NCBI GenBank assembly: GCA_026986355.1
Contig: JALSOO010000105.1
Location: 1 to 40,926 of the forward strand
DNA: 40,926 bases
Reading direction: 5' to 3'
DNA from: Campylobacteraceae bacterium
GTDB lineage: Bacteria; Campylobacterota; Campylobacteria; Campylobacterales; Sulfurovaceae
Part shown: positions 17,857 through 35,699 of the stretch, one piece after another
Position numbering within the stretch: position 1 is the first letter of the stretch
Layout: the number at the start of each line of letters is the position of its first letter
Position numbers and translations under genes: made by a program
Notes under the pieces: generated by a model
Told to the model about the DNA's origin: nothing
Databases searched by the model: none
What the model saw: only the letters and a program-made list of their open reading frames with translations

Positions 17857-19371
17857 TTAATTAAATCCAATACCTGACTGTTTAATCATCTCTGTAATTG
17901 TCTCTAAAAGAGGGTCAACATAGAACATTGAACCTACTGTTACAAATACAGCAAGACCGAGAATAGTCAATAGAGGTTTAGAAACATTGTAATAGGTAAT
18001 CTCTTTAGTTACCATATCTGTTGGCTCTTTTAGGAACATATATACGATTAGTTTCAAGTAATAATATGCAGAAATAGCAGAGTTTAGACCCATTACTACA
18101 GCTAACCATAGATAACCAGAGTCAACGGATGCAGACATAATATATATTTTACCCCAAAAGACAGAAAATGGTGGAACACCTGCTAATGATAGCATAAAGA
18201 GTGCCATTACCACAGCACCTACAGGCATAATTTTAATCATTCCTGCAAACTTCTCATAAGGGTGGTCAAAACGTGTATGGTGTACTGTATCTTTGTGACG
18301 ACTAACCCATAACATTGTAAATGCACCAAGGTTTGTAAACATAAAGAGTCCATAGTACAAGAAGATACTAGAGTTTGCTTTGACAGTTGCAAGAGCAACA
18401 GCAGCCATTACAAAACCTGCATGAGAGATTGATGAGTATGCCAACATTCTTTTTACATCTTCTTGGACGAGTGCCATAATATTGGCAATAGTCATAGTCA
18501 CAACAGATAGACAGAGAATAATCTCTTGAACTCCATCAATATTAAGAGCGATAAACATCTCAAAAATTCTCATAGAGACTACAAATGCAGCTAATTTAGG
18601 TACAACCGACATAAATCCTGCTAATGGAGATGACGCACCCTCATAAACATCTGGAGCCCATGTATGAAATGGAAAGAGTGAAAGCTTAAAGGCAAATGCT
18701 ACGAGTAACATTGATGCTCCACCTAAAATCAGAAACATAACTCCTGCTTCGTCCATTCTACTCTGAAGTGCTACACTAATCTGATTTAACTCTAAACTTC
18801 CTGACAATCCATAAAGAACAGCAGACCCCATAGCAAAGAAACCAGCAGATAATGCACCCATTGTAAAGTACTTAACAGAAGCCTCAAATGAGTTTGCTCT
18901 ATTGTGCAGAGCGATAAGTGTATATAGTGATAATGAAGCTGTCTCTAAACCAACAAAGATAAGAATCAAGTTATCTGAACTTACCATAAATTGGAATCCT
19001 GCAACCATAAACAAGAAGAGAGCAAAGAACTCAGGATATGAGTACTCATGGAATCTCTTTGAGGTCAATGCCAAAGGTATAAATAGCATTGAACCTACCA
19101 ATATAGTCACTTGTGCTAGTATAGCTAAACCATCAATAAGAAGAACATCAAAAAAACCATTTTGATACTCAAGACCAAGAACTGAACCTAAATCAACTAA
19201 TAGAATTAAGATAGTAAACATTACATAGAGAGACTTATCTAGTTTATCTTTCATCAAATCTAAAACTAAGATAAGTAAACCACCACCAATTGCAATTAAC
19301 ATTGGCATTAATGTTGCTATATGCAGTTCAGCGAAACCGATATTTACAGGCTCTAATAGAGGTGTTCCCAT
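17857..19371 (-). CDS. nuoN: NADH-quinone oxidoreductase subunit N
   Basis: The 504-residue membrane protein is an antiporter-like proton channel subunit of complex I. The E of FVGLETASLSLYTL corresponds to the conserved TM5 glutamate, K in ASVKYFTMGALSAGFF to the TM7 lysine, and FPFHTWAPDVYEGA to the broken-helix loop. About fourteen membrane helices are visible. It is the last gene of the nuo operon; the ATG overlaps the nuoM stop (TAATG). It pumps protons in the membrane arm next to NuoM, NuoJ, NuoK and NuoA. Confidence 0.95.
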   Translation of the reverse strand: MGTPLLEPVNIGFAELHIATLMPMLIAIGGGLLILVLDLMKDKLDKSLYVMFTILILLVDLGSVLGLEYQNGFFDVLLIDGLAILAQVTILVGSMLFIPLALTSKRFHEYSYPEFFALFLFMVAGFQFMVSSDNLILIFVGLETASLSLYTLIALHNRANSFEASVKYFTMGALSAGFFAMGSAVLYGLSGSLELNQISVALQSRMDEAGVMFLILGGASMLLVAFAFKLSLFPFHTWAPDVYEGASSPLAGFMSVVPKLAAFVVSMRIFEMFIALNIDGVQEIILCLSVVTMTIANIMALVQEDVKRMLAYSSISHAGFVMAAVALATVKANSSIFLYYGLFMFTNLGAFTMLWVSRHKDTVHHTRFDHPYEKFAGMIKIMPVGAVVMALFMLSLAGVPPFSVFWGKIYIMSASVDSGYLWLAVVMGLNSAISAYYYLKLIVYMFLKEPTDMVTKEITYYNVSKPLLTILGLAVFVTVGSMFYVDPLLETITEMIKQSGIGFN

Positions 19372-20894
19372 TATTCTGCCTCCTTTTTACTAATTATAAT
19401 AGCATCTTTTGTTGTTTGTAACTCTGCATGTTCTTCCATCTGAACCAATAACGCTTTAACCGAGTTATCAATTGGATCAAGAACAGGTTTTGGATAGATT
19501 CCTAACCAAACAACAATCGCTACCAATGGGAGAAGTGCTGTAAGCTCTCTACCATCTAAATCTTTTAAACTTAAGTTCTTTTTATGTGTAACAGGACCAA
19601 AAAATGATTTTTTGAAAAGTGCCAACATATATACAGAACCGATAATAATCGTAGACCCTGCAATAATAGTACCTATAACAGAAACTTTATAGAATCCGAG
19701 TAGGACTAAGAACTCTCCAACAAATCCGATAGTTAGTGGAAGACCCACAGATGCCATCAACATTACACCAAATACGGTTGCATAAACAGGCATTACAGCT
19801 GCTAATCCACCAAATTCTGACATTATTTTTGTACCTGTACGTTCATAGATGACACCTACCAACATAAACAACGCTCCCGATACAATACCGTGAGACAACA
19901 TTAAAAATACAGAACCACCAAGACCTTCAGCATTCATAGCAAAAACACCCAGCATAATAACACCCATGTGTGAAACAGATGAGTACGCAATCACTTGTTT
20001 CATATCTTTTTGTGCAAAAGCTACCATTGCTGTAAAGACAACCATAATGATTGATAAGACCATCATAAATGGTGTAAAGTATACAGATGCATCAGGTAAG
20101 ATTGGTAGAGAGAATCGTACAAAACCATATGTACCCATTTTTAGAAGTACAGCAGCAAGGATTACAGAACCGATAGTTGGTGCTTGTCCATGAGCGTGTG
20201 GCAACCATGTATGGAATGGAAACATTGGTACTTTGATAGCAAAACCAGCAAAAAATGCCAAGAACAACCAAAACTGTTGGTCTGTGGTAAGATGTAGTTG
20301 ATACCAATCTAAGATATTAAATGTCCATACTCCATTATCTAAATGATATAGATATGCCATTGCCAAAAGACCAACTAACATGATTAGTGACCCTGCAAAG
20401 GTATAGAGGAAGAATTTAACAGCTGCGTAGACTCTAGTTGGTCCACCCCATGCACCAATAATATAGAGCATTGGTACTAATGAAAGTTCCCAAAATAGAT
20501 AGAATATTATCGCATCTAATGCAACAAATACACCAACCATTGTCATCTCTAGGAAAAGAAGAGATATAATCATATTCTTCATATTTGGAGTATCATCTCT
20601 AAGAGAGATAATTCCTAAAAGTGTAATAAGTGTTGCCATAATGACAATAAAGAGTGATATACCATCAACACCTAAGTTGTATGAGATACCAAACTGTGAA
20701 ATAATAGGGCTAAACTCTGTAAATTGCATTCCTGCATTGACATTATCAAAGCCTACCCATAACCATAATGACAAGACAAACTCTACAGAAGCTACGGCGA
20801 TACCGTAAGCTTTTGCAGAACGCTTATCTACAACAAAACCAAGAACACCTGCTAGTGCAGGGAAAAATATTAAGATACTTAATATATGCGTCAT
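19371..20894 (-). CDS. nuoM: NADH-quinone oxidoreductase subunit M
   Basis: The 507-residue antiporter-like subunit has FWELSLVPMLYIIGAWGG with the conserved TM5 glutamate, AVKFFLYTFAGSLIMLVG with the TM7 lysine, and FPFHTWLPHAHGQAPTIGSV, the strongly conserved half-channel loop of NuoM. Its length is normal. It forms the middle proton channel of the membrane arm between NuoN and NuoL. It begins nine bases after the nuoL stop and is expressed from the operon promoter upstream of nuoA. Confidence 0.96.
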   Translation of the reverse strand: MTHILSILIFFPALAGVLGFVVDKRSAKAYGIAVASVEFVLSLWLWVGFDNVNAGMQFTEFSPIISQFGISYNLGVDGISLFIVIMATLITLLGIISLRDDTPNMKNMIISLLFLEMTMVGVFVALDAIIFYLFWELSLVPMLYIIGAWGGPTRVYAAVKFFLYTFAGSLIMLVGLLAMAYLYHLDNGVWTFNILDWYQLHLTTDQQFWLFLAFFAGFAIKVPMFPFHTWLPHAHGQAPTIGSVILAAVLLKMGTYGFVRFSLPILPDASVYFTPFMMVLSIIMVVFTAMVAFAQKDMKQVIAYSSVSHMGVIMLGVFAMNAEGLGGSVFLMLSHGIVSGALFMLVGVIYERTGTKIMSEFGGLAAVMPVYATVFGVMLMASVGLPLTIGFVGEFLVLLGFYKVSVIGTIIAGSTIIIGSVYMLALFKKSFFGPVTHKKNLSLKDLDGRELTALLPLVAIVVWLGIYPKPVLDPIDNSVKALLVQMEEHAELQTTKDAIIISKKEAE

Positions 20895-20903
20895 AACCCC
20901 TCC

Positions 20904-22814
20904 TTAACCAATGAATGCAGATATACCTGCACCCAATACTAATAATAATGCACCAACACCCATCCAATTAAGGTACGATGATAGGTTACCATTTTGCATA
21001 CCTCTTGATACATCTCCTGATACATAGATTACTTTTGCAATAAAGTCAACTGTGCCATCAACGATAGCTTTATCCATTTCCCAAAACTTATCTGATGCAA
21101 CAGTATATGGCTGAACAATAAACTCATCATAGAACTTTGGAACATAGTATTGGTTTGCAACCAATTTATAGATAAATGAGTTCTCTTTTTTCTCATTTCT
21201 CTTCCAAGCTTTATCCCCTTTACCTGCATATTTTATATAAGCAATACAGATACCTATTAGAGCTAGAACAATAACGATTGTTCCTAAATATGGAGCTAAA
21301 TGATGTGTCTCATGACTCATCTCATAATCTGGAAGGTTTTTGGTAATAAACTCATGGAAATTATCCATAAACCAACCAAATGAGATAGCAAGAACAGCTA
21401 ATGGAGCCATTGCTACAAGTACATATTTGTACATATCGTGTGGGTGGAAACCTAACGCTTTATAACGCTCTTCACCATGGAAAGTAAAGAATACTTGTCT
21501 AAAGCTATAGAATGCTGTCATTCCTGCTGTAATAACCAAAATACCCCAAATGATAAATGAGCCATCATTAAATGCTGTCTCGATAATCGCATCTTTTGAG
21601 TAGAACCCTGCCATAATAGGAAGACCTGCTAGTGCAAATGAAGCGATACCCATATAGATATATGAACCTCTCATCACTTTTTTCATACCACCCATTTTAA
21701 ATATGTCAAGTTCATCATCCATAGCGTGCATTACGTTACCTGCACCCAAGAATAGAAGTGCTTTAAAGAACGCATGTGCTGCTAAGTGGAAAAGTGCAAT
21801 CCAGTAAGCTCCAAGTCCAGCTGCTGCAAACATATAGCCAAGTTGAGAGAGTGTAGAGAGTGCAACAATACGTTTAATATCTCTAGCACTTAGTGCCATA
21901 GATGCAGCATAGAATGCCACAAATGCACCAAGTGATGCGATAAACATAGAGACACCATGAACAGCATCTAAACTAAATAGAGGGTTAGCTCTAATTACCA
22001 AGAAAACCCCTGCTGTAACCATTGTAGCTGCGTGAATAAGAGCAGAAACAGGTGTAGGACCTTCCATTGCATCTGTCAACCATGTATGTAGTGGAAATTG
22101 TGCTGATTTACCCATTGCACCAATAAAGAGTGCCATAGCAATAGCTACGAGAAGTCCATCTGCCAAATGAGGAAGAGCCTTAAATACTACATCATATTGA
22201 AGTGAACCAACATTCCAGTATATAAGGAAAATTCCTACCAACATACCAAGGTCAGCTATACGGTTCATAATAAACGCTTCGTTTGCTGCCCAAGATGGAG
22301 AGATTGATGGATTCTCTTCAAATGTTTTATCCTCTTTATGATACCAAAAACCAATTAGTAACCAAGAACAGACACCAACGCCTTCCCAACCAATAAAGAG
22401 TCCAGCAAAGTTATCACTCATAACCAAAATCATCATGGAAAATACAAATGCAGATAGGTATGAGAAGAATCTATTATACCCTTTATCGTGATTCATATAT
22501 CCTGTAGAGTAGATATGAACAATAGTTGAGACTAAAGTAACAACCAACATCATTGTTACTGATACTTCATCAACCAAGAAACCAAAAGGAATATTTAAAT
22601 CCCCAACAGCAATCCATGTCATCATCTGAACATGAACGGCTCCATGTTCTGCTACATGTAGAGCCAATGTAACAGCAGAGACAAATGCCACTGCAATAAG
22701 GCTTGAATTAACAATACCAACTAGATGTGTTTTGGGACTCCTAGCAAAAAAGAGTCCAGCAAACAATGCACCAACAAAAGGAGCAAAGAGTGCTATATAT
22801 ACAAATTTTTCCAT
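20904..22814 (-). CDS. nuoL: NADH-quinone oxidoreductase subunit L
   Basis: The 636-residue subunit has the NuoL features GWEGVGVCSWLLIGFW (TM5 glutamate), FPLHTWLTDAMEGPTPVSAL (conserved loop), and a C-terminal extension (about 500-636) that includes charged sequence and a final membrane helix, which fits the lateral helix HL and TM16. NuoL is the distal proton channel of complex I. It sits five bases after nuoK. Nothing is missing from the key residues that I can see. Confidence 0.96.
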   Translation of the reverse strand: MEKFVYIALFAPFVGALFAGLFFARSPKTHLVGIVNSSLIAVAFVSAVTLALHVAEHGAVHVQMMTWIAVGDLNIPFGFLVDEVSVTMMLVVTLVSTIVHIYSTGYMNHDKGYNRFFSYLSAFVFSMMILVMSDNFAGLFIGWEGVGVCSWLLIGFWYHKEDKTFEENPSISPSWAANEAFIMNRIADLGMLVGIFLIYWNVGSLQYDVVFKALPHLADGLLVAIAMALFIGAMGKSAQFPLHTWLTDAMEGPTPVSALIHAATMVTAGVFLVIRANPLFSLDAVHGVSMFIASLGAFVAFYAASMALSARDIKRIVALSTLSQLGYMFAAAGLGAYWIALFHLAAHAFFKALLFLGAGNVMHAMDDELDIFKMGGMKKVMRGSYIYMGIASFALAGLPIMAGFYSKDAIIETAFNDGSFIIWGILVITAGMTAFYSFRQVFFTFHGEERYKALGFHPHDMYKYVLVAMAPLAVLAISFGWFMDNFHEFITKNLPDYEMSHETHHLAPYLGTIVIVLALIGICIAYIKYAGKGDKAWKRNEKKENSFIYKLVANQYYVPKFYDEFIVQPYTVASDKFWEMDKAIVDGTVDFIAKVIYVSGDVSRGMQNGNLSSYLNWMGVGALLLVLGAGISAFIG

Positions 22815-22819
22815 TCTTA

Positions 22820-23125
22820 CTATCCTTTCATTGATGAAATTACTTCAAGGTCTAATGAACCATATCTCTTATGGAGTAAGATTAAAAGACCTAAACCAAC
22901 AGCCACTTCAGAGGCTGCAACTGCAATAATGAAGAATGCGAACATCTGTCCTGATAAATCTCCATAATAGTTTCCTATCGCTGCAAATGCAACATTTACA
23001 GCATTCAACATGATTTCCGTAGCAAAGAAGAGCATCAAAAGATTTTTTCTTCTAAGTACGCCTACAAATCCTATACTAAACAGAATCCCTGAAAGTATAA
23101 GATAATGACTAATACCTATCTCCAT
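22820..23125 (-). CDS. nuoK: NADH-quinone oxidoreductase subunit K
   Basis: At 101 residues with three membrane helices, this is a normal NuoK. The two conserved membrane glutamates are visible in FFATEIMLNAVNVAF and AASEVAVGLGLLILL. They form part of the proton path linking the quinone site to the antiporter subunits. The ATG is two bases beyond the nuoJ stop. Confidence 0.95.
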   Translation of the reverse strand: MEIGISHYLILSGILFSIGFVGVLRRKNLLMLFFATEIMLNAVNVAFAAIGNYYGDLSGQMFAFFIIAVAASEVAVGLGLLILLHKRYGSLDLEVISSMKG

Positions 23126-23127
23126 TG

Positions 23128-23733
23128 TTAAGCCTCCTCTTTTTTTAGTTTTTCAGCAATATCAAGCTCTTCAACTTTAAGCTCTTCATCACTCACTTCA
23201 CACTCTGTTAGAGAGTAATCCATCTTTTTACCTGCCAAGATAATACCTGCAATCATTGCAACTAATAACATAACAGCAGCTACTTCAAACGGTATAAGAT
23301 ATTTAGTAAATAGAATCATACCTACATACTCTGCATTTTTAATAGAGTTTCCAAACTCATCTACTGCATATGGATAGAGTGCTTGGATATTGTCTCCAAT
23401 AATTGGTGCAGAGAACATAACTACAAAAAGAACAGCCATCAATCCACCAAGTAGAAATACTAATGGTGCATTTTGATGTCTCTCTTTAATATCTTTGGTT
23501 GCATCAAAGAACATCATTGCAAATGCGTAGAGAGCCATTACAGCACCTACATATACAATCAACTGAACCACACCCAAGAAGTCTGCTCCCAAAAGGAAGA
23601 AGAGTCCTGAAATCATTACCATTCCTGCTGCCAATGAACTCATGGCATAAAGAACATTTTTACTCATCGCCGTAATCGTAAACAGTATCGTAGTCGATAC
23701 TGCAAAGACATAAAAGGCTATCACTTCATACAT
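23128..23733 (-). CDS. nuoJ: NADH-quinone oxidoreductase subunit J
   Basis: The 201-residue protein has about five membrane helices and the NuoJ signature FLGVVQLIVYVGAVMALYAF, the pi-bulge helix TM3 involved in coupling. The C-terminal 35 residues are a charged soluble tail (EVSDEELKVEELDIAEKLKK) that is longer than in minimal NuoJ proteins. It lies between nuoI and nuoK in the standard order. Confidence 0.94.
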   Translation of the reverse strand: MYEVIAFYVFAVSTTILFTITAMSKNVLYAMSSLAAGMVMISGLFFLLGADFLGVVQLIVYVGAVMALYAFAMMFFDATKDIKERHQNAPLVFLLGGLMAVLFVVMFSAPIIGDNIQALYPYAVDEFGNSIKNAEYVGMILFTKYLIPFEVAAVMLLVAMIAGIILAGKKMDYSLTECEVSDEELKVEELDIAEKLKKEEA

Positions 23734-23745
23734 TTTCTTCTCCTT

Positions 23746-24369
23746 TTAGTACGCTAGAGGCGTTGGTTTAATATTCTCATCAGCATTTGGACTGATTGCA
23801 CCAAACCCATCATACTCTTGTTGAAGATTGAGCTTGTCAATTGGTGTCAACATATCTTCAAAGAGTGAGAAACTAGCTCTCTGCTCTGATGCTGTCTCAT
23901 ATCGTGGACCATGTACGATTGCCAACTCAGGACAAACCTCTGCACAATATCCACAAAAGATACAACGTCCAAAGTTGATGGTATACTCTGAAACCTCTTT
24001 TCTTTGGTTTTCATCATATTTTGTCTCCATAGAGATACAATTAGAGATACAAATCTTTTCACAAAGTCCACAACCGATACATCGGTAGTTACCTGACTCC
24101 ATCAATCGAAGCATATCATGAATCGCTCTATATCGTGGAGAGATGGGTAACTTCTCAAATGGATATTGAGTAGTGTGCATTTTGCCACCAACAAGAGCAT
24201 TTCCCATCTCTCTAAAGGTTACCCAAAGCCCTACAAAAAGCTCTGGTTTAAAGGTTCTACCTACAACTTGTTTAAATTGACCCCAGCCTGTAGTCGGAGT
24301 ATGTGCTAAATCAAGTTTTACGTAATTTTGTGTTCCAACATTTCTGTTTTTAAACTGTTCTAAACTCAT
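23746..24369 (-). CDS. nuoI: NADH-quinone oxidoreductase subunit I (2x[4Fe-4S])
   Basis: The 207-residue protein carries two tetranuclear cluster motifs: CIGCGLCEKIC (first, with Ile in place of the usual Pro after the fourth Cys) and CIFCGYCAEVCPELAI (second), corresponding to N6a and N6b. It passes electrons from NuoG to NuoB. The N-terminal part is amphipathic and would contact NuoH. The C-terminal ~40 residues after the clusters are species-specific. Standard position between nuoH and nuoJ. Confidence 0.95.
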   Translation of the reverse strand: MSLEQFKNRNVGTQNYVKLDLAHTPTTGWGQFKQVVGRTFKPELFVGLWVTFREMGNALVGGKMHTTQYPFEKLPISPRYRAIHDMLRLMESGNYRCIGCGLCEKICISNCISMETKYDENQRKEVSEYTINFGRCIFCGYCAEVCPELAIVHGPRYETASEQRASFSLFEDMLTPIDKLNLQQEYDGFGAISPNADENIKPTPLAY

Positions 24370-24382
24370 CGTTACTCCTTCC

Positions 24383-25393
24383 TTAAATTATCATCATCAC
24401 GAGACCCGTGATAACTACATTGATTACTGCCAATGGCATTAATACTTTCCAACACAACCACATAAGTTGGTCTGGTCTAACGTGTGGCCACGCAGCTCTT
24501 ACCCATAGCATAAAGAAGAATGAAAATGCAATTTTACCGATAATCATCAACCAACCTGGGAAAATCCAAAAGTCATTATATCCACCAAGGAAGACAACAG
24601 AAGCAATAACACCAATAGTAATCATATTGGCATACTCTCCAATAAAGAATAGCCCCCATCTCATACCACTGTACTCTGTTACATATCCAGAGATAACCTC
24701 TGCTTCATGCTCCAAAAGGTCAAATGGTGTTCTGTTGGTCTCTGCAAATCCTGCAATCAAAAATAGGACAAATGCTACTGGTTGATAGACAACCAACCAT
24801 GTTCCATCTGCTTGGTAATCATTAAAATCAACAAAAGATAGAGAACCAACCATCATAATAGGAGCTAAAATAGAAAGCCCTGTTACAACCTCATATGATA
24901 AGAATTGGATTGCTGTTCTTGCACTCCCCAAGATACCCCATTTATTCGCTTGTGCCATACCTGCAAGAAGTGGACCATAAAGCCCTGCTGCCATCATTCC
25001 AAGTACAAATAGGATTCCTACATTAATATCAGATGCAATTGATGGAACATAAACATCAACAAGAGGGATAGTAAACCCAGGGAAAACAGGTACTGCTGCT
25101 AGAGCAATAAATGCTGTTGCTGCTGTAATAACAGGAGCTACTGCAAATATAATTTTATTTGCATGTTGAGGTATAATATCCTCTTTGGTAAAGAGTTTGA
25201 TACCATCGGCTGCTAACTGTAACAACCCATAAGGACCTACATGTTGTGGTCCAAGCCTTCTCTGCATAAATGCAAGAATCTTTCTCTCAATATAAGTACC
25301 AAATCCAGCAATAGCTGCGATTACTGCTAAAATCAAAACTGCTTTTATAATAACCCCAACAGCCGTGACTTCTGGTAACATTGTTGAATCCAT
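24383..25393 (-). CDS. nuoH: NADH-quinone oxidoreductase subunit H
   Basis: The 336-residue membrane subunit forms the quinone-access chamber. Conserved stretches are ERKILAFMQRRLGPQHVGPYGLLQ after the first helix, LADGIKLFTKEDI-like AADGIKLFTKED, and AETNRTPFDLLEHEAEVISG with the acidic cluster that links the quinone site to the proton channels. Eight membrane helices fit. The gene starts two bases after the second NuoG. Confidence 0.96.
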   Translation of the reverse strand: MDSTMLPEVTAVGVIIKAVLILAVIAAIAGFGTYIERKILAFMQRRLGPQHVGPYGLLQLAADGIKLFTKEDIIPQHANKIIFAVAPVITAATAFIALAAVPVFPGFTIPLVDVYVPSIASDINVGILFVLGMMAAGLYGPLLAGMAQANKWGILGSARTAIQFLSYEVVTGLSILAPIMMVGSLSFVDFNDYQADGTWLVVYQPVAFVLFLIAGFAETNRTPFDLLEHEAEVISGYVTEYSGMRWGLFFIGEYANMITIGVIASVVFLGGYNDFWIFPGWLMIIGKIAFSFFFMLWVRAAWPHVRPDQLMWLCWKVLMPLAVINVVITGLVMMII

Positions 25394-25394
25394 A

Positions 25395-27743
25395 TTACAC
25401 CTCCTTTATAGTTACTGAAGCATATCTTGAACCATCAAATAGCCCATAAACATTTTCAGCAGATTTAAAATCTGAAAGAGCCATAATATCGCCCTCCATC
25501 TTTTTATCTTCAATTACATCAACAACGATTGTTCCGTTATCAAATACCACCTCTACCTTTTTACCTAAACTCTCTGCCTTAGATGAACTAACATATAGTC
25601 CAAACGGTTCAAAAATCTGATGTGCTTTTGCAGAAAAATCATTGAACTGTCTAGGAGGATTACATCTATAGACAATATCTCCATCTAAAAGAGTATCATC
25701 ATAGAACTTCTCAACTTTTGGAGTATCTCTCTCTTCAAATAGAACATTGAGTAGATAACCTCTATGCTCATTTCCTGCATTATCATAATAGTTATCTAAA
25801 CTATCAAACTCAACAGCTCTGTACCCTCTATCAGTTGGTAGTCGTTTTGTCCAATCTATGGTCTCTTCTGGAGCATCATCAATAAGCTCTTTCATAAGGT
25901 CATTTAACTCATATCCACCATAATCTAACGCAACATTGGTAGGAACAACTCTTTTTGAGAGATTAGTTACTGTTCCCTCTTGTTGGTTAAATGCAGGAAT
26001 ATCCAAATCGCCATCTCCAAGTGCAGAGAGTCTAAAATCTCCAATCTCGTTATAACCAACTGTATAACCCTCTGCATTATCATCAAGGTCACATATAATG
26101 GCTACCCCTAACGCATTTGATTTTGGTGGGTTCATAACAACATTAAATCCTGCTGTCTGCTCAATAAGTGCGATAAGTTTAGCAAGATTATCGGCTCTAT
26201 CATGATAGTAGTAATCCTCTCCTACCATTAGAGTAAATCTCTCTTTTTTCTTCATCATCTTATCGAAGCCTTTAATAAATTTCTTGGAGTCTCCACCTAC
26301 TAAATCTATCAATCCCTCTTTTCCACCAAGCTCTGTAATATAATCTTTGACACTACTATCAAGCTTATCTTGGTCTGAAAATAGTGCAAGAACTAGATAT
26401 AGAGTAGCCTCTTCAAGACCAACTTTATGGGTAAATGTAGAGACACTTTTACCAAATGATGGAATCAGAGTATCTCCTACGGGGTGGAAATATAACCCTG
26501 CACCTTTGTTCATCTTTTGAACATTATTAAATGCGTATTTTAACCCTGGGCTATCGTTTCTCAATGCACCACCTACTGATACGATAAAGTCACTCTTCAT
26601 ACTATCCTCCATAGATGAGGTGTAGAGTGAGTGACCTGACGCATCAGCATAGAGAGTTAAGAACTTTTGAAATGCTCTAACTTCTGGGTTATACAATTTA
26701 ATACCCATCTTCTCTTTGAGTGTCTGAAGCATCATCGCCTCTTCATTGGTAATCATGGAGTTAAATCGGATAGTTTTAGCTTTTTTAAATGCTTCAATAG
26801 CCAAATCAAAAGCTTTTTTATCTTTTGTAACTCCTCTATTCTCATAGTCATAACCAAATCTAGCAGAACCATCAAGAGATACATAGTTCCACTCATTAGT
26901 TACACGATAAATCTTCTCATCTCGATTATCTATAGAGATTGGTTTAACCTCATAATAGATTTGAAAACCATCTGAAGAGTGAGCCGATACAGCAGGAATC
27001 TTTCTCAAATCCCATGCATTTGATGTATAGACAAAATCTCTTGATACCAATGCACCAACAGGACATACTGCGATACACTCTCCACAATCAGAACAATCGG
27101 TAGAACCTGTACCGTTACTTGGAGCAATAACAGATTTTTGAAGCTTATTCCACATAGCATAAGCATCTTTTGGCATCTCATCTTTCCAAGCTTTATCTAG
27201 TGATGCACCACCACGTTTAGTGGTTTTAATCGCTGCATCTCCAATCATATCTTTACATACTGTAGTACAACGTTCACATACGATACATAATCCTGCATCA
27301 TAATGTAAAACACTACTCCAATCGCTTGTCTCTCGTTTTGTATCTGGGATAGAGTACGATTGAGAATCTACTTGTAGTTCTAGTGTGTAGTTTTGTAACT
27401 CACACTCTCCACTCTGGTCACATACACCACACTGTAGTGGGTGGTTAACATCATAAACTTCCATCATTGCTCTACGCTCTGCTAGAATATTTGGAGTGTT
27501 AACGGTAACCTCCATGCCCTCTTTGACCTTAGTATTACAAGAATAAACCTGCTTCCCATTAGCTTCAACTAGACATATCCTACACGCTAGTGTGGGAGAA
27601 CATCTCGTTAAGTAACAGATTGCAGGAATAAAAATATCGTTGGCACGAGCAGCATTGAGGATATATTCACCCTCTTTTGCTTTATACTCTTTACCATCAA
27701 TAGTAATACTTACCATATTTTCTACTGTTTGTACTTCGCTCAT
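25395..27743 (-). CDS. nuoG: Second NuoG-like iron-sulfur subunit (NuoG2), with an extra ferredoxin-type cluster
   Basis: The 782-residue protein starts with a [2Fe-2S] domain (CYLTRCSPTLACRIC and VYSC, N1b-type), then HPLQCGVCDQSGEC (N4-type with His ligand). Next come CIVCERCTTVC and CSDCGECIAVCPVGAL, eight cysteines for two [4Fe-4S] clusters where NuoG normally has one at this point. The two Cys groups are separated by about 60 residues not found in the first NuoG of this operon. The CxxCxxxC site for cluster N7 at the start of the molybdopterin-like domain is absent (IPAVSAHSSDGFQ). The C-terminal half is a degenerate molybdopterin-oxidoreductase fold without cofactor ligands that I can identify. 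It lies one base after NuoG1 and before nuoH. It conducts electrons in the peripheral arm. How two NuoG proteins fit into one complex, or whether they alternate, is not known from sequence. Confidence 0.88.
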   Translation of the reverse strand: MSEVQTVENMVSITIDGKEYKAKEGEYILNAARANDIFIPAICYLTRCSPTLACRICLVEANGKQVYSCNTKVKEGMEVTVNTPNILAERRAMMEVYDVNHPLQCGVCDQSGECELQNYTLELQVDSQSYSIPDTKRETSDWSSVLHYDAGLCIVCERCTTVCKDMIGDAAIKTTKRGGASLDKAWKDEMPKDAYAMWNKLQKSVIAPSNGTGSTDCSDCGECIAVCPVGALVSRDFVYTSNAWDLRKIPAVSAHSSDGFQIYYEVKPISIDNRDEKIYRVTNEWNYVSLDGSARFGYDYENRGVTKDKKAFDLAIEAFKKAKTIRFNSMITNEEAMMLQTLKEKMGIKLYNPEVRAFQKFLTLYADASGHSLYTSSMEDSMKSDFIVSVGGALRNDSPGLKYAFNNVQKMNKGAGLYFHPVGDTLIPSFGKSVSTFTHKVGLEEATLYLVLALFSDQDKLDSSVKDYITELGGKEGLIDLVGGDSKKFIKGFDKMMKKKERFTLMVGEDYYYHDRADNLAKLIALIEQTAGFNVVMNPPKSNALGVAIICDLDDNAEGYTVGYNEIGDFRLSALGDGDLDIPAFNQQEGTVTNLSKRVVPTNVALDYGGYELNDLMKELIDDAPEETIDWTKRLPTDRGYRAVEFDSLDNYYDNAGNEHRGYLLNVLFEERDTPKVEKFYDDTLLDGDIVYRCNPPRQFNDFSAKAHQIFEPFGLYVSSSKAESLGKKVEVVFDNGTIVVDVIEDKKMEGDIMALSDFKSAENVYGLFDGSRYASVTIKEV

Positions 27744-27744
27744 A

Positions 27745-30003
27745 TTAGCTTCCTACTCTTTCTAAATCTACTTTACTAAATCTATAAGAGGATAGCAAAG
27801 CCGTACTTAAGCCCATATCAAATAATGGGTTAAGGGCTATTGTACCCTTTAAAGATGTATCAATCTTAAACACTCTCTCAAATTTAACGGAATCTATGGT
27901 GTAACGTATAGTATCACCATCTTTTAACTTTGATGCAGTTGCAAACTGCTGTGAACCCAAAAGATAGGCATCTTTTATAAGATTATCTGACAATGCCGTT
28001 AACGGGGAGAAGTGTTCTTGTGGGTTACAATTATAGACAACTGTTCCATCAAAAGCACTCATCTCTGCTATATCTTCTATAGATGTATCTAGCCCCACTT
28101 CTACCTCATCAAGAATATAACCTCTATGCTCATTACCTTTTGCATCAAAATAGTTTGTTAAACTATCAAACTCAATTGCTTTAAAGCCTTTGAATAGAGG
28201 TAAATCTTTTGTATAATCAATCGTATACTCTGAGTTTAATCCTAAACTATTTGCTAAATCATTTAGAACATAACCACCATAATCTAATACAACATTTAGA
28301 GAAGTAACTCTCTTATCAAGTGAGGTTAATGTACCCTCTTGTTGTGTAAAGCTTGGCATATCTAAATCACCATCTCCAAATGATGATAAAGTAAAGTCTC
28401 CTTTTACGTTATAACCAATCGTTGAACCCTCTATATCATCATCTAAATCACAAATTTGTGAGATACCCATACCGTTACCAGCAGGAGGAATACAGATAAC
28501 ATTAAATCCTGCATACTTCTCTAGTAGAGCCAGAAGTTTAGCGATATTTTCAGCTCTTGGGTGTGCATATAAATCAGCTCCTACAACTAAAGAGAATCGA
28601 CTCTTTTTAAGAAGTGATTTCTCTAAAGCCTCAAGCTCCTCTTCGCCTACATTGCATTCAGCAGAGAGATTTCCAATATCAAGCTCATCAAGTATATCTC
28701 TAATGTTTTGAGGGAGTTCACACTCTTTTAGTAGAGTATCTGCTAGGAGTGCTACTACACCCTCTTCTGAACCTGCTTCATATTTGATAAATTGAGTTAC
28801 AATATTTTTAAGTTCACTATCTTCTATAGGGTGCATATAGGCAACTCTAGCTCTATGCCACTTAGAAGCCATATTGATATGATACTTAACAATAGGTGCA
28901 TCATCATTTACACGTGTTCCTACTACAATTACAGCTCTTGAGTTAGATAACTCTTTTAGAGAGCCACCATAGAGAGATTTACCTGTAATAGTCCCATACG
29001 AATTCATAAACTTCTGAAATGCTCTTGCCTCATGAGAGATAAGCTTATAACCTCTACTCTCTTTTAGCTTTTGTAAAATATACGCCTCTTCATTTGATAC
29101 TTCATTAGAAAAGATAATAGTTTTAGCAGACTCAAACGCTTTTAGTGCAGATTGAAATGCTATTTCATCTTTTACAACATCTCTATTGGCAATATCAAAT
29201 CCATAACGAGAAGCCGAACATAGAGTAGAGAATTCAGCCGTATTGCTTACACGGTAAATCTCTCCTTTTTTAACTTCATAAATCACATCATGCCCACCCC
29301 CACAGTGAGGACAAGTTGATGGTATCTGTGTTAGCTCCCAAGCATTTGAACTATATTTGAAACGACTATCAACCAATGCCCCAACAGGACATACAGCTGC
29401 GGCCTCGCCAAGTGTTTTATAGTTTTTATCTTGTTTTACATTTTCGATAGTTGAAGAGTATCCACCAAATTTTACTTTGAGTGCTTCATCTCCTGTAATC
29501 TCTGTAGATACTCTTACACACTTCTCACACATAATACACAGAGCTGGGTCATAAGAGATAACACCCCAGTTCTGAACAGGTCTATGTGGCTCTTTGGTAG
29601 TAAAGTTTTGTCCACTTACACCAAACTCCATTGTCTTGTTTTGGAGGTCACACTCTCCACTCTTGTCACATACTCCACACTCTAAAGGGTGGTTTACATT
29701 ATAGAGTTTCATAATGCTTTGACGCTCTTTAAATAACTCTTGATTGTTGGTTGTAATAACAGCACCATCTGTTGCTTTCTCTTGACAAGATAATATTGCT
29801 CCATCAACACCCTCTACATCAACAATACACATTCTACATGATGCAATTGGTAATGTTTTGGTTAGATAACACATGGTTGGAATATATATCTCATTTTCAC
29901 GAGCAATCTCCAAAATTGTTTGACCATAAATAGCCGAACAGCTTTTCCCATCAATAGTTACATTGATAGCTTTTGCTTCTATATCTCTTATACTGCTCAT
30001 CAT
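27745..30003 (-). CDS. nuoG: First NuoG-like iron-sulfur subunit (NuoG1)
   Basis: About 752 residues. Cluster motifs in order are CYLTKTLPIASCRMC plus ILSC (N1b [2Fe-2S]), HPLECGVCDKSGEC (N4), CIMCEKCVRV with the distant CPVGAL (N5-type, single [4Fe-4S]), and CPHCGGGH followed 24 residues later by Cys, which sits where N7 occurs but has His for the third Cys. The C-terminal molybdopterin-like domain resembles NuoG2 in many stretches (GYNVKGDFTLSSFGDGDLDM, EFDSLTNYFDAKGNEHRGY), so the two arose by duplication. The ORF track starts 12 codons earlier inside the preceding gene; the ATGATG at 30003-29998 overlaps the preceding TGA stop and is preceded by GGTGG, so I place the start at 30003. It accepts electrons from the NuoF substitute, or takes its place, in the peripheral arm. 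Confidence 0.87.
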   Translation of the reverse strand: MMSSIRDIEAKAINVTIDGKSCSAIYGQTILEIARENEIYIPTMCYLTKTLPIASCRMCIVDVEGVDGAILSCQEKATDGAVITTNNQELFKERQSIMKLYNVNHPLECGVCDKSGECDLQNKTMEFGVSGQNFTTKEPHRPVQNWGVISYDPALCIMCEKCVRVSTEITGDEALKVKFGGYSSTIENVKQDKNYKTLGEAAAVCPVGALVDSRFKYSSNAWELTQIPSTCPHCGGGHDVIYEVKKGEIYRVSNTAEFSTLCSASRYGFDIANRDVVKDEIAFQSALKAFESAKTIIFSNEVSNEEAYILQKLKESRGYKLISHEARAFQKFMNSYGTITGKSLYGGSLKELSNSRAVIVVGTRVNDDAPIVKYHINMASKWHRARVAYMHPIEDSELKNIVTQFIKYEAGSEEGVVALLADTLLKECELPQNIRDILDELDIGNLSAECNVGEEELEALEKSLLKKSRFSLVVGADLYAHPRAENIAKLLALLEKYAGFNVICIPPAGNGMGISQICDLDDDIEGSTIGYNVKGDFTLSSFGDGDLDMPSFTQQEGTLTSLDKRVTSLNVVLDYGGYVLNDLANSLGLNSEYTIDYTKDLPLFKGFKAIEFDSLTNYFDAKGNEHRGYILDEVEVGLDTSIEDIAEMSAFDGTVVYNCNPQEHFSPLTALSDNLIKDAYLLGSQQFATASKLKDGDTIRYTIDSVKFERVFKIDTSLKGTIALNPLFDMGLSTALLSSYRFSKVDLERVGS

Positions 30004-32009
30004 ACAGCCACCATCGATATATAGTAACATCGCATACAACGCTCTGCTTCTGCTATCGCCTCTTCTCCAGTAAATCCAAGATTTACCTCTCTTTGGTTAT
30101 CTTTACGCTCATCAACTCCAAGTTTTTCACTCTCTTGACGTGGAATACCTGGCATCCACCCTGTAATCTTCTCATTTTTATTATAAACTCTTAAACGAGA
30201 TAAGTGGTCTTCCATAATCTCATCATCAAGAAGTGTACATTTACCATCATAGATATAACGACTTATTACTGAGGCAGCACGTCTTGCTTGACCTACTGCA
30301 TTTACAATAGTCATTGGTCCATACTCACAATCTCCAGCAGCAAAAAGTCCATCTTTTGAGGTCATATAATCTTTACCGTTAGTAGCAATTGAGTTCCAAC
30401 TTGTCATTTTAATATCCCACTCTTCAGGAATAATCTGTAAATCTAGTGATTGAGAGACAGCAGGGATTAGATAGTCAATATCTAACTCAAAATCTGCACC
30501 CTCTATCTTAACAAGTTGAGGTCGTCCACCATTTGGGTCTGGAACAAGTTCAAACTTATTAACTTTAAGCTTTGTAAGTTTATCTCCATCATCAAAAATC
30601 TCTTCAATAGACGAGTAGAAGATAAACTCAACACCCTCTTCAAGAGCCTCATGATACTCTTCATAAGTTGTATTTCTAATAATAGTTTTTTCATCACGAC
30701 GGTAAAGCATAATAACTTTTTTAGCACCCTCACGAATCGAACAACGTACAACGTCCATAGAGGTAAATCCACCACCGACACAGACAACTGTTTTGTCTTT
30801 AAGTTCATTTGATGCAGGGCTACCGATACCATATTTATGCCATAGGTTAACCTTGTCAAGCATATCTATAGCACCCCAATAACCCTGTTTAGTTGGGTCT
30901 TCATTTTTAGCACGAACTTTTTTAGAGAGTCTAGCACCAAATCCAAGTAGTGTCGCATCATACTCTTCATAAATATCTTTAAGCATCTCTGCTGTTACTC
31001 GGCAGTTATTGGTAATAGTTACAGCTTCCATCTCTAAAACAAGGTCAATATCTTTGTTGTACTTATCAACAGGCATTCTATACTCTGGAACACCTACAGC
31101 AACCTCTCCACCATTTACTGGTAGCTCTTCAAAGATATGAACCTTTATACCCTCTAGTGCCAAGTAGTACGCTGCTGTTAGACCTGCAGGTCCTGCACCA
31201 ATAATGGCTACTTTTTTACCATCATTTCGTAGAGGTTTTGGCTCAAATGGGTGCAACCAAGGAACTTCATGGTCTGTCTCATAATCAGCACCTAATCGTT
31301 TAAGCTCCATAATAGAGATAGGTTCATCAAGATTCATACGTCTACACGCATCTTCACAAGGGTGTGGACATACACGACCACAAGTGTGTGCTAATGGCAT
31401 TGTTTGACGAGTTGCAGACAATGAATCTGTAAATACCATATCTCTAACACCCTCAATATAAGCAGGAATATCAACACTTGCAGGACACATATCCGTACAT
31501 GGTGCTGTTACTTTTGCAATATAAGAGATGTCTGAATTGTAGTGGATAGAAGGTATTTGAGCATCAATACAGGTATCAAACTGCTCTTTGTAATGCTCCA
31601 TTAAATCTAATATAGGTTTAGGAACGGTCTTTCCAATCTCACATTTTGATGTAACCATCATAGTTTGTGAAATCTCTTTGAGGTGGTCTACATCTGCATG
31701 TGTACCCTCTCCTCGTGCTATTTTGTCGAGTAAGTCATAAAGAATCCTACCTCCCCAACGACCAGGAGCACAACGACCACACGCTTCTGAGTACTCTTGG
31801 TACTGTGCTGCGTATTGTGTTGCCAAAATAACAGCATCTATATCTTCGTCAAAGATGGCAACACCATCCCAACCAATAAATGCTTTGCTATCTCGCTCTC
31901 CATGATAGGTTTCAGGAAGTTTAAAACCCGACTCACTCCACTCTTCTGATGGTTTACCACGATTGTCGATAAACTCATCACGCCAAGTAGAGAACAGTAA
32001 CCTAGACAT
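30000..32009 (-). CDS. NuoF substitute: NuoF C-terminal-like cluster region fused to a GltD/NfnL-like FAD oxidoreductase
   Basis: The 669-residue protein sits exactly where nuoF belongs but has no NADH/FMN Rossmann-like NuoF domain and no SLBB ubiquitin-like domain. Residues about 70-145 resemble the NuoF four-helix N3 region: SEACGRCAPGRWGGRIL (C77, C80, with Gly in the place of the third Cys) and SKCEIGKTVPKPI (C123). From about 165 it is GltD/NfnL-like: CTDMCPASVDIPAYI and CGRVCPHPCEDAC (two [4Fe-4S] clusters), GAGPAGLTAAYYLA (FAD), VVCVGGGFTSMDV and LYRRDEK (second dinucleotide, NAD(P)H), and AAGDCEYGPMTIVNA (FAD ribityl). It ends with ERCMRC. Such flavoproteins oxidise NAD(P)H and pass electrons to iron-sulfur partners. 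It is probably the electron-entry flavoprotein of this complex I, in the cytoplasm. Which pyridine nucleotide (or ferredoxin) is used is undecided. Confidence 0.85.
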   Translation of the reverse strand: MSRLLFSTWRDEFIDNRGKPSEEWSESGFKLPETYHGERDSKAFIGWDGVAIFDEDIDAVILATQYAAQYQEYSEACGRCAPGRWGGRILYDLLDKIARGEGTHADVDHLKEISQTMMVTSKCEIGKTVPKPILDLMEHYKEQFDTCIDAQIPSIHYNSDISYIAKVTAPCTDMCPASVDIPAYIEGVRDMVFTDSLSATRQTMPLAHTCGRVCPHPCEDACRRMNLDEPISIMELKRLGADYETDHEVPWLHPFEPKPLRNDGKKVAIIGAGPAGLTAAYYLALEGIKVHIFEELPVNGGEVAVGVPEYRMPVDKYNKDIDLVLEMEAVTITNNCRVTAEMLKDIYEEYDATLLGFGARLSKKVRAKNEDPTKQGYWGAIDMLDKVNLWHKYGIGSPASNELKDKTVVCVGGGFTSMDVVRCSIREGAKKVIMLYRRDEKTIIRNTTYEEYHEALEEGVEFIFYSSIEEIFDDGDKLTKLKVNKFELVPDPNGGRPQLVKIEGADFELDIDYLIPAVSQSLDLQIIPEEWDIKMTSWNSIATNGKDYMTSKDGLFAAGDCEYGPMTIVNAVGQARRAASVISRYIYDGKCTLLDDEIMEDHLSRLRVYNKNEKITGWMPGIPRQESEKLGVDERKDNQREVNLGFTGEEAIAEAERCMRCYYISMVAV

Positions 32010-32773
32010 TATTTACCCTTTTTTCTAGCAGGAGCTTTTTTTGTAGATGTTTTCTTGAGAGGTGCTTTTTTAAGAGGAGCTTTTTTTGCTGGAGCTTTCT
32101 TTGCTTCTTCTTTTGTTTCAGCAACAAACTTTTCTGTCTCCTCTTTTATTTTTGCTTCAGCTTCAGCTTTTTCTGCTTCGTCTCTTGCTTTCGCTTCAGA
32201 AGCAACTTTTTTAGCCTCCTCTTTTGCTTTTGCTTCAGCAATAGCCTTCTTTTCAGCTTCCTCTTTTGCTTTTTTCTCTGCATCAGCTTTAGCTTTGGCT
32301 TCGGCTTTCTCTTTTGCTAATTTTTCAGCCTCCTCTTTTGCTTTTTTCTCTGCATCAGCTTTAGCTTTAGCTTCTGCCTCCTCTTTAGCTAATTTTTCAG
32401 CCTCCTCTTTTGCTTTTTTCTCTGCATCAGCTTTAGCTTTAGCTTCAGCTTTCTCTTTTGCTAATTTTTCAGCTTCGATTCGTTTCTCTTCTGCTATTTT
32501 TTTAGCTTTGATTGCATCTTCTTTACGTTTAGCTCTCTCTTCATCTGAAACTTTTTTAACAACAATAGTCCAATCAACTTCATTAAATTTCAATGAATTC
32601 ATCAAATCATGTTGTAAATCTCTAATAAAGTCAGCAGACTTTTGAATATGAGAGAAATCTCCTACTTCAAAAAGGAATATACCCACTTCACCAACTTTTA
32701 GTCCAGAGTCAATAAGCTCTTCCATTCTATTATAAAAATCATCTTTAAGATGTCTTAAATCATATCTTTTCAT
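32009..32773 (-). CDS. NuoE substitute: HP1264-like domain with TolA-like repeat helix and histone-like tail
   Basis: Residues 1-75 resemble the short protein that replaces NuoE in Helicobacter and Campylobacter (HP1264/Cj1575c type; about 76 residues there), with DLRHLKDDFYNRMEELI, VGEVGIFLFEVGDF and NEVDWTIVVKK. There are no NuoE [2Fe-2S] cysteines, and the 254-residue protein contains no Cys at all. Residues 76-225 are almost only Ala, Lys and Glu in a probable single long helix, with three 24-residue units EKLAKEKAEAKAKADAEKKA (102-125, 126-149, 150-173). Residues 225-254 are a basic KKAPAKKAPLKKAPLKK tail like the C-terminus of histone H1 or Hc1. It overlaps nuoD by one base and the NuoF substitute by one base. 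The domain probably anchors on complex I; the helix and tail may reach membrane, nucleic acid or another protein. Nothing in it looks catalytic. Confidence 0.8.
   Translation of the reverse strand: MKRYDLRHLKDDFYNRMEELIDSGLKVGEVGIFLFEVGDFSHIQKSADFIRDLQHDLMNSLKFNEVDWTIVVKKVSDEERAKRKEDAIKAKKIAEEKRIEAEKLAKEKAEAKAKADAEKKAKEEAEKLAKEEAEAKAKADAEKKAKEEAEKLAKEKAEAKAKADAEKKAKEEAEKKAIAEAKAKEEAKKVASEAKARDEAEKAEAEAKIKEETEKFVAETKEEAKKAPAKKAPLKKAPLKKTSTKKAPARKKGK
32255..32470 (-). repeat. Three 72-bp tandem repeats inside the NuoE-like gene
   Basis: TGCATCAGCTTTAGCTTT recurs at 32279, 32351 and 32423, an exact 72-bp period, with the flanking sequence nearly identical in all three units. They encode three nearly identical 24-residue blocks. 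Codons differ at a few positions (for example gcttcg, gcttct, gcttca), so the array is not brand new. In-frame slippage would change helix length by multiples of 24 residues. Confidence 0.9.
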
Positions 32774-34002
32774 TATCTATCCACCTCTCCAAATACAATA
32801 TTTGTTGAACCAATAATAGTTACAACATCTGCAATATAAGTACCAACTAAAATCTCTTGAAGCAGTCCTGTATGGAAGAATGATGGTGCTCTACACTTAA
32901 GTCTATAAGCATATGGCTCTCCCTCTGATTTGATATAGAATCCAAGCTCTCCTTTTGGAGACTCTGTTGGAACATATACCTCCCCTTTTGGTGGTCTCAT
33001 TCCTTGTGTGACTAATACAAAATGTTGCATCAATGCATAGTTTTGTGTCATTATCTCCTCTTTTGGAGCAGATATATATTGTGGTGCATGTGCCATTAAT
33101 TGAGGTTCGGTCTCATCATATTTCAAGATAAGTTGACGAATCATCTTTGTTGACTCTTTCATCTCTGCCATATAGAGTCTATATCTACCATAAGAGTCAT
33201 TAGTATCAGCTACAGGTATATCAAAATCCAATTCTGAATAGAGTTCATAAGGCTCTTCTTTACGAACATCATAAGCAACTCCTGAACCTCTAAGCATAGG
33301 ACCTGTACAACCCCAACTAAGCGCATCTTCAGTAGAGATTACACCAACATCTTCCAAACGCATTTTCCAAATTCTATTCTCTTGTAGAAGTGCATTATAG
33401 GTATGTTCTAACTCATAATCAACAGCATTACAGAAGTTTCTCATTTGTGCTAACCAACCTGCTGGTAAATCCAATGGAACACCACCAATTCTAACAGATG
33501 AGTGAGTCAATCTAGCTCCACAGTAATCTTCCATCAAGTCCATTGCAAACTCACGCTCACGGAAAGCATAAAGGAATACAGACATTGCACCAACGTCTAG
33601 TGCATGTGTTGCGATAAAAAATAGATGAGAGATAATTCGGTTAAGTTCAAGTAGCATAGTTCTAATAACTTGTGCTCGTCTAGGTGCTTCTATTCCCAAC
33701 AGCTTTTCTACAGCTAATGCATACGCATAGTTGTTTGAGGTAGAAGCGATATAATCAAGTCTATCTGTTGTAGGTAGAAACTCATTATATGTCATATTTT
33801 CAGCCATCTTTTCGATACCACGGTGTAGATAACCAATATCTGGATAGGCTTTTACTACCTGCTCTCCATCAAGTTCGAGTACAAGTCTTAACTGTCCATG
33901 TGCTGATGGGTGTTGTGGTCCAAAGTTGATAACCATAGTATTGTCATCACGCTCAAAATTTAGGTTTTCAAAAAATGGGGATAATTTATTTGGTTGTTGC
34001 AT
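32773..34002 (-). CDS. nuoD: NADH-quinone oxidoreductase subunit D
   Basis: The 409-residue subunit has the NuoD hallmarks [20 protein letters not shown] near the N-terminus, [27 protein letters not shown], the [10 protein letters not shown] motif and the ending [19 protein letters not shown]. It forms the quinone-binding pocket with NuoB and carries the His and Asp near the headgroup (in GPQHPSAHG and the C-terminal region). Separate NuoC and NuoD genes are used, not a fusion. The next gene upstream is 13 bases away. Confidence 0.96.
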
Positions 34003-34015
34003 AGTTCTCCTCCCT

Positions 34016-34810
34016 CTACTTTCTATCTTCTGCTGGTTTTACACCATCAGCTTCTTGATAATCAACCAAGAACGTTTTAGAGTACTCAATTGCTGTTTTA
34101 GTTTCGCCTTGTGAAATATCTGCACCAAACTCAACCTCATATCCTACTCTTGAGAATCGTTTTGTGTCGTGTCTATCGACTCTAGCAGGGTCTCTATTTT
34201 CTGGTCCAATAGCTTCACGAGCATCTTTTCCAAATATCCTATCTACCTCATACCATGAAGCAAACTCATCTCCTTGTAGAGGATAAGTTTTAAGAAGTGG
34301 ATATCCTTCCCAATCATCTGGCATCAAAATTCTTCTCATATATGGGTGGTTATTTGATACAATCCCAAACATATCAAACATCTCACGCTCTGCAAAGTTA
34401 GCAGATTTGTAGAGAGGAACAACAGACTCCACAGCTACCCCCTGCTCTATTCTCATTACTAGACGCATTCTTTTAACATCTTTAAGATTTAACATCTGAT
34501 AAAAGACCTCAAAGTTCCCATCTTTTGCCAAGTAATCTACAGCACTCATCTCTGTAAGTTGAGCATAGCCACACTCATTTTTTAAAATCTCTAAAGCTTT
34601 AAAGTTATCTTCGTGATTAATCTCCACAATCATAGAGCCTAATTGTATCTCTGCTCTATTTACTTCAACTTTAGAACTTAAAATCTCTAAATGCTTTACA
34701 AATACCTCATCACTACTCACATCTTCTCTAGGAGTTGATGGAACAACATGGTATCTATCCGTATAGTATGCTTTGCCTTGAACATTATCTTTTGGTACAT
34801 ATTTTCTCAT
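34016..34810 (-). CDS. nuoC: NADH-quinone oxidoreductase subunit C
   Basis: The 264-residue protein ends in the conserved 30-kDa subunit block [38 protein letters not shown]. The N-terminal ~60 residues ([20 protein letters not shown]) extend beyond the minimal family domain, as is common in Campylobacterota. It is structural, binding NuoD and NuoI. The ATG overlaps the nuoB stop (TAATG). Confidence 0.94.
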
Positions 34811-35328
34811 TATATTAACCTTAAGTTCTGTTTTTTATTATTGTTCATATTTGCTGACTCTCTTCTAATCTTCTTTTGAAGCATCATCAACGCATACTGT
34901 AAAGTTTCAGGACGAGGTGCACACCCAGGAAGATATATATCAACAGGAATAATTCTATCAACTCCTTGAACCGTAGCATAGGTATTAAACATACCACCTG
35001 TATTGGCACATGACCCCATAGAGATAACCCATTTTGGTTCTGTCATCTGGTCATAGAGTCGTCTAGCAAACTCCGAGTGCTTTTTAGAGAGTGTTCCTGC
35101 TAAAATCATAACATCTGATTGTCGTGGACTAGCTCTAAAGATAGTTCCCATTCTATCAAAGTCATAACGTGATGCACCAGATGCCATCATCTCAATAGCA
35201 CAACATGCTAATCCATAAGTTAAAGGCCAAAGTGAGTTACTTCGCCCCCAGTTAATTAAGTGGTCAACGGTAGTCAATGCTACAGGTAAGCCCCCAGATG
35301 AGGCGTAATTTACTTGATGCTGTGCCAT
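34810..35328 (-). CDS. nuoB: NADH-quinone oxidoreductase subunit B
   Basis: The 172-residue protein carries the N2 cluster ligands [10 protein letters not shown] (tandem Cys), [12 protein letters not shown] and [16 protein letters not shown]2 is the terminal [4Fe-4S] cluster that reduces the quinone. The gene overlaps nuoA by 19 bases, so the two are probably translationally coupled. Nothing is unusual. Confidence 0.96.
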
Positions 35329-35699
35329 TCAAGTGCTCCTTTTTTCCATGCGTAAATAAATCCAATTGTTAAAAGTAATATAAACAAAACCATCTCTGTA
35401 AATCCGAACCAACCAAGTAGTTTAAAATCAATAGCCCAAGGGAACATAAAGATTATCTCTACATCAAATAGAATAAATAGAAGTGCTATAAGATAAAATT
35501 GAGTCGAAATAGTATTCGGCTGTTTTGTTACCTCTGGTCCACACTCATAGATGGTTAGCTTCAACTTTTCAGTATCGAGCTTTGCTAATTTCCTACTTAC
35601 AAATCGTGCAGCCATTAATGTTGCATTAAATGCTAATACTGTCACAACAAACAAGAAGAAAATACCTAGATAGGGGTGTTCGTTAATCACATGAGTCAT
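35310..35699 (-). CDS. nuoA: NADH-quinone oxidoreductase subunit A
   Basis: The 129-residue subunit has three membrane helices and the signature [13 protein letters not shown], followed by [20 protein letters not shown] with the conserved acidic residues of the second helix. It is the first gene of the operon; AAGGAG lies five bases before the ATG. The upstream 250-bp gap should hold the operon promoter. Confidence 0.95.

Follow-up and report, generated by a model that had tools for sequence, protein, structure and literature searches.

A GltD-type flavoprotein with a NuoF-type cluster stub as the predicted NADPH entry of a long-form complex I in Campylobacterota

Complex I is normally defined by its NADH input, with the known exceptions dropping the input module or using ferredoxin. 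A stretch of 40,926 nucleotides (the window) from a Sulfurovaceae MAG (1.57 Mb, 95.7% complete) raises the question of what enters a complex I in which the place of NuoF is held by another flavoprotein, here called FLAV. The nuo operon in the window is intact, with the gene order nuoA-B-C-D-nuoX-FLAV-nuoG1-nuoG2-H-I-J-K-L-M-N (Table 1), such that nuoA-D and nuoH-N are all present around FLAV. The stop codon of nuoX overlaps the FLAV start by 1 nt (TAATG) and the FLAV stop overlaps the nuoG1 start by four bases (ATGA), indicating that the listed TTG start of nuoG1 (30039) is probably wrong and the ATG the likelier start. NuoX belongs to PF16514 with no thioredoxin-like NuoE match in Pfam. In the window its Lys/Ala/Glu-rich tail forms heptad-like repeats of about 175 aa, while nuoX encodes 74-100 aa in most relatives, with open frames of 170-205 aa in four genomes (G219, G221, G225, and G264).

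Table 1. Features of the nuo operon, with positions counted from the first nucleotide of the window.
Feature	Position	Strand	Basis and remarks
nuoH, I, J, K, L, M, N	17857..25393	-	ORF list and operon comparison
nuoG2, second NuoG	25395..27743	-	Two-cluster ferredoxin motif (CxxCxxCxxxC + CxxCxxCxxxCP); N7 cysteines gone
nuoG1, first NuoG	27745..30003	-	N1b, N5, and N4 motifs retained; probable ATG start at 30003
FLAV, NuoF-type N3 stub + GltD/StnC-type FAD-NAD(P)H domain	30000..32009	-	669 aa; ORF, profile, and structure-homology searches
FLAV: C-terminal R-C-M-R-C pair (Cys658, Cys661)	30027..30041	-	Predicted to complete the distal [4Fe-4S] cluster; conservation; StnC and the Collinsella protein have the pair in this position too
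FLAV: FAD and NAD(P)H Rossmann domains, residues 264-588	30246..31220	-	PF07992; conservation; GAGPAG 271-276, GGGFTS 412-417, YRR 436-438
FLAV: GltD/DPYD-type Fe-S helical domain, residues 166-247	31269..31514	-	PF14691; Cys171, 175, 214, 218, 222, Lys237; alignment columns; Lys ligand predicted by analogy to StnC K170
FLAV: NuoF C-terminal helical [4Fe-4S] (N3) region, residues 43-146	31572..31883	-	PF10589; Cys77, Cys80, Cys123 retained, Gly83 as third Cys; invariant in 114 homologues
nuoX (NuoE position)	32009..32773	-	PF16514; homologue of H. pylori HP1264 (PDB 2lxr); Lys/Ala/Glu-rich tail
nuoA, nuoB, nuoC, nuoD	32773..35699	-	ORF list and profile searches

Profile searches with NuoF, SLBB and GltD-type domains, as suggested in an earlier note on this DNA, defined the architecture of FLAV. 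Pfam matches were obtained to NADH_4Fe-4S (PF10589; residues 74-145, 8e-20), Fer4_20 (PF14691; residues 168-247, 5e-22) and Pyr_redox_2 (PF07992; residues 265-575, 3e-25), with none to Complex1_51K (PF01512) or SLBB. In keeping with this the TIGR01959 nuoF model aligned only through its C-terminal positions 298-408 of 410, on residues 34-146. FLAV thus shares the C-terminal N3 helical region with NuoF/Nqo1 of canonical complex I but has no FMN/NADH fold, no SLBB and a Gly as the third N3 Cys, while Fer4_20 plus the FAD and NAD(P) Rossmann domains are the features of a GltD-type protein. Together with the operon position these matches bear out the claims of the note that the NADH/FMN fold of NuoF is gone and that its position is taken by a GltD/Nfn-like flavoprotein carrying a NuoF-type cluster stub. 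The closest solved homologues by sequence are the large subunits of NfnABC and StnABC followed by NfnL and GltD, and Foldseek returned the same list from an AF2 model built on 38 close homologues (mean pLDDT 67.6, with cluster segments below 50). The PDB matches listed included none with the stub and GltD domain in a single stretch of one chain. In a tree of GltD-type proteins FLAV forms one clade, with deeper branches so weak and long that the clade has no placement within the tree.

No PF01512 domain was detected in the host genome (95.7% complete), which likewise leaves it with no StnA/StnB-type (NuoE-like plus NuoF-like) bifurcating subunits, and the single copy of PF10589 is the FLAV stub. 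In a sample of 298 Campylobacterota genomes FLAV was found in 81, accompanied by nuoX in 80 (the exception being a fragment), with PF01512 absent from 66 of the 81 and present in 15. Ten NuoF copies from nine of these fifteen genomes were inspected, six of which adjoin hydrogenase-type genes (HoxF/HoxU-like) with the others lying in separate canonical nuo operons or remnants with their own nuoABCD/G. A complete NuoF serving the FLAV complex, the finding that the note had named beforehand as decisive against it, was therefore seen neither in the host nor among these copies, which belong to other operons.

The order X-FLAV-G1-G2 is identical, over the length covered by the contigs, in 20 operons that represent many genera and families. 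Full-length FLAV homologues are 53-93% identical and keep the same operon position, arguing that the fusion did not arise by chance. The earlier reading was in this respect incomplete, since the phylum-wide form, the accompanying second NuoG and the existence of the fusion elsewhere all lay beyond it. In some f2 genomes (L112, L115, and L117) FLAV reaches 927-962 aa; the extra 240-300 aa between the stub and the GltD domain were considered as a new domain, which was rejected as they read as a low-complexity linker, suggesting that stub and GltD domain can tolerate a flexible tether. One Sulfurovaceae genome (G208) has two separate short-form nuo operons (L146 and L147) and no FLAV, and the other sampled genomes of its family carry the long form.

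Residue conservation was read from an alignment of 114 FLAV homologues. The N3 motif of FLAV is CGRCAPGR...KCEIG with Gly83 in the position of the third Cys, and this position is Gly in 114 of 114 homologues so that none has the four-Cys N3 site of NuoF, whereas Cys77, Cys80 and Cys123 show no variation. The replacement of the third Cys of CxxCxxC, correctly pointed out in the note, is thus a fixed family trait and not a sequencing error. Cys171, 175, 210, 214, 218, 222 and Lys237 are likewise invariant, as are Cys658 and Cys661 in all rows extending to the C-terminus. Apart from Cys210 these residues support the two further clusters that had been proposed. By alignment to DPYD and StnC the proximal cluster would be held by Cys175, Cys214, Cys218 and Lys237, and the distal cluster by Cys171, Cys222, Cys658 and Cys661, an assignment that in part follows the ligands of DPYD.

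The proximal ligand set bears on both the nucleotide and the chemistry at the FAD. Cryo-EM of Stn showed that the proximal cluster of StnC is bound by three Cys and Lys170 (Cys3Lys), with NADPH oxidised at the FAD next to this cluster and bifurcation lost there (PMC10482914). At the aligned site GltD and NfnL rows have Glu, while FLAV (114/114) and StnC-like rows have Lys. YRR (436-438) and Arg311, equivalent to StnC R239, are also retained in FLAV; the NAD(P)H motif is GGGFTS as against GGGNTA in the closest NADPH enzymes. No NfnS/NfnA partner gene adjoins FLAV, the neighbours being nuoX and nuoG1. Of the electron entries that the note had offered, NADPH appears the likely nucleotide, judging from the StnC-like residues and from NADPH-using relatives, but bifurcation at the FAD of FLAV loses its support as the predicted ligand is Lys and not the Glu of NfnL. 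A converter of two-electron NADPH to one-electron carriers is favoured over a bifurcating FAD on these residue comparisons.

The probable role of FLAV is that of the nucleotide-entry subunit, an NADPH/NADP+ port, of a variant ('long form') complex I. An entry role is suggested by the position of FLAV, which every full operon inspected has between nuoX and nuoG1 (with overlapping codons in the window), by occurrence only with nuoX save for the one fragment, by the lack of PF01512 in most FLAV genomes, and by the same fusion in Collinsella, where the neighbour is an [FeFe]-hydrogenase whose N-terminus is NuoG-like. A role for NADPH is suggested by the best solved homologues, which serve StnABC and NfnABC as NADPH subunits, and by the Lys at the StnC-aligned site with YRR and the R239 equivalent. 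Against NADPH entry count GGGFTS in place of GGGNTA and the absence of one of the four N3 ligands.

The domain make-up, invariant ligands, absence of NuoF and conserved operon are established from sequence, and from them we infer cofactors, NADPH specificity, docking and direction as follows. The FAD of the GltD-like domain would be the site where NADPH is oxidised or NADP+ is reduced, and single electrons would pass from this FAD to the proximal cluster, on to the distal cluster and then to the altered N3 cluster of the stub, which would dock on NuoG1 as NuoF docks on NuoG. From N3 electrons would continue through NuoG1, possibly NuoG2, NuoI and NuoB and reach menaquinone, protons being translocated on the way. 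Sulfur oxidisers that fix CO2 may run the complex in reverse with the proton gradient driving NADPH formation. PntB transhydrogenase was not found in the host genome (95.7% complete), and ATP-citrate lyase and 2-oxoacid:ferredoxin oxidoreductases are present, which fits an rTCA autotroph needing NADPH from quinol-level donors. On general values the step from menaquinol to NADP+ is uphill by about 0.3 V per electron, which is reachable at about 180 mV if four protons are moved for each electron pair, ferredoxin being harder to reach. The long form is also present in G167 and other f2 genomes, so that a complex of this kind does not require autotrophy, and forward operation has also to be considered. 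If NADPH-type input from a different flavoprotein proves true, the input module of complex I is exchangeable and sulfur oxidisers using the rTCA cycle can obtain NADPH through reverse electron flow.

It is also conceivable, but unlikely, that the long form is a dual-entry or confurcating complex I in which NADP(H) reacts at FLAV and ferredoxin or flavodoxin at NuoG2 and NuoX, the two being thermodynamically coupled. In keeping with this NuoG2 retains the two-cluster ferredoxin motif (N7 being lost in the window copy), and HP1264, the H. pylori NuoX, is said to bind FMN. For the short form, which has no FLAV, use of flavodoxin or ferredoxin has been reported (PMC6682613, PMC4585668), with NuoX and NuoG2 both retained in the long form. 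Two points count against the coupling: the Lys at the proximal cluster, as at the non-bifurcating FAD of StnC and not the Glu of NfnL, and the lack of a NuoF/FMN bifurcating core of the StnAB/HydBC type in the host genome. Simple dual entry without coupling is possible.

The two NuoG copies and the short form bear on whether FLAV belongs to the complex at all. NuoG1 of relatives carries N1b, N5 and N4 together with N7-like cysteines and a further CxxCxxC...CP set. In the window NuoG1 several of the relatives' ligands are gone (second ferredoxin cluster), and His replaces the third N7 Cys. Where FLAV is missing, nuoX is followed by a gene (L135-L150) for a protein of 231-339 aa, which matches NuoG1 from about residue 340 through to its C-terminus, with hhalign giving a probability of 100, E 3.4e-59 and 34% identity to NuoG1 compared to E 7.5e-22 and 21% identity to NuoG2. 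Its place in the gene order identifies it as the 'NuoY' described in the literature (PMC6682613). On these alignments NuoY is an N-terminally truncated NuoG1, the cluster-bearing half having been lost together with FLAV.

FLAV and NuoG1 could instead form a separate soluble NADPH oxidoreductase like SfrAB, co-transcribed but not docked on complex I, which is very unlikely. GltD-like and NuoG-like parts do occur together without a complex I in SfrAB (PMC7483475) and in the Collinsella pair, FLAV has its natural partner in NuoG1, and full-length NuoG1 disappears together with FLAV. Nevertheless the C-terminal part of NuoG1 is kept in short-form nuo operons without FLAV, indicating a role of that part in the complex itself, and all families examined have the same gene order. 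Highly improbable, too, is that FLAV is specific for NADH and replaces NuoEF by another NADH dehydrogenase fold: position and partner are those of NuoF and GGGFTS is not the GGGNTA found in the closest NADPH enzymes, but YRR is invariant as in the NADPH enzyme StnC and the nearest characterised relatives use NADPH. A degenerate, redox-inactive FLAV with a structural role is barely credible, since for all the loss of one N3 ligand and of cluster ligands in NuoG1 and NuoG2 of the window, all other predicted ligands and the flavin and nucleotide motifs are invariant in 114 proteins down to about 53% identity.

Returning to FLAV as the NADPH entry of complex I, the identity of NuoY suggests that the flavodoxin-type complex I of Campylobacter and Helicobacter probably derives from the long form. 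In a NuoB/C/D/H tree 8 changes between long and short forms are needed, counting strongly supported branches only, and a single clade of short forms is rejected. In a tree of the G1/Y segment NuoY is also broken up, but a single origin is not rejected (p-AU 0.069). These trees are read most simply if short forms arose repeatedly by loss from a long-form ancestor, with exchange of operons between lineages a possible alternative. A wider scheme, offered tentatively, would have a phylum-wide ancestral reversible NADP(H):menaquinone proton-pumping complex I, possibly ferredoxin-coupled, which gave rise to the Campylobacter/Helicobacter flavodoxin type as the NADPH module was lost repeatedly and NuoG1 was shortened to NuoY. 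If true this would explain the identity and origin of NuoY.

The nuoXY-type complex I of C. jejuni and H. pylori shares the nuoABCD-X-...-G-HIJKLMN frame, NuoX (HP1264 family) for NuoE and the lack of NuoF, but the long form has FLAV and a full-length second NuoG in addition. The large subunits of StnC/NfnABC type (S. ovata, C. saccharolyticus, and T. sibiricus) share the GltD-like FAD domain, the proximal Lys, the C-terminal RCxxC and a link to NuoG-like clusters, with NADPH as substrate in StnC. In StnC, however, GltD is fused into NuoG and feeds a NuoF-like bifurcating core, whereas FLAV has a NuoF stub, a separate NuoG1 and the operon of a membrane complex, with Ile at the position of StnC C114.

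The nearest precedent for the fusion is WP_195568673.1 of Collinsella aerofaciens (NCBIfam PRK12771), 30% identical to FLAV over 602 columns, which has the same layout of stub and GltD domain, the C-terminal RCxxC and a neighbour with a NuoG-like N-terminus, but differs in retaining all four N3 cysteines and in its [FeFe]-hydrogenase context. Against PRK12771 (NF009410) it scores 592 bits and FLAV 358, the latter below the cut-off of 516. The Collinsella cluster (L132:4755-9494) comprises a 4Fe-4S protein, the stub plus GltD protein and an [FeFe]-hydrogenase, and is likely an NADPH-linked hydrogenase. In Geobacter the NADPH:Fe(III) oxidoreductase SfrAB pairs GltD-like SfrB with NuoG-like SfrA (PMC7483475). 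FLAV and NuoG1 are a neighbouring pair of this kind, a parallel drawn from the literature. SfrB presumably carries a NuoF-type stub, and would then probably be a further precedent for the fusion; to our knowledge SfrAB does not lie in a nuo operon. The fusion is thus a known module in a new place, and within the literature searched what is new is its place on complex I and the altered N3 site. No description of the long form was found in the open-access literature searched, which covered nuoXY and Stn, while subscription-only papers may mention it.

Two minor observations concern neighbouring genes. In the single-contig 2.11-Mb genome G167 nuoG2 is not one frame but two, which overlap and have 309 and 537 aa (L120, 11681-14051). 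Outside the nuo operon of the window, positions 14484-16624 encode a flavin-dependent oxidoreductase beside a small protein with a twin-arginine-like start.
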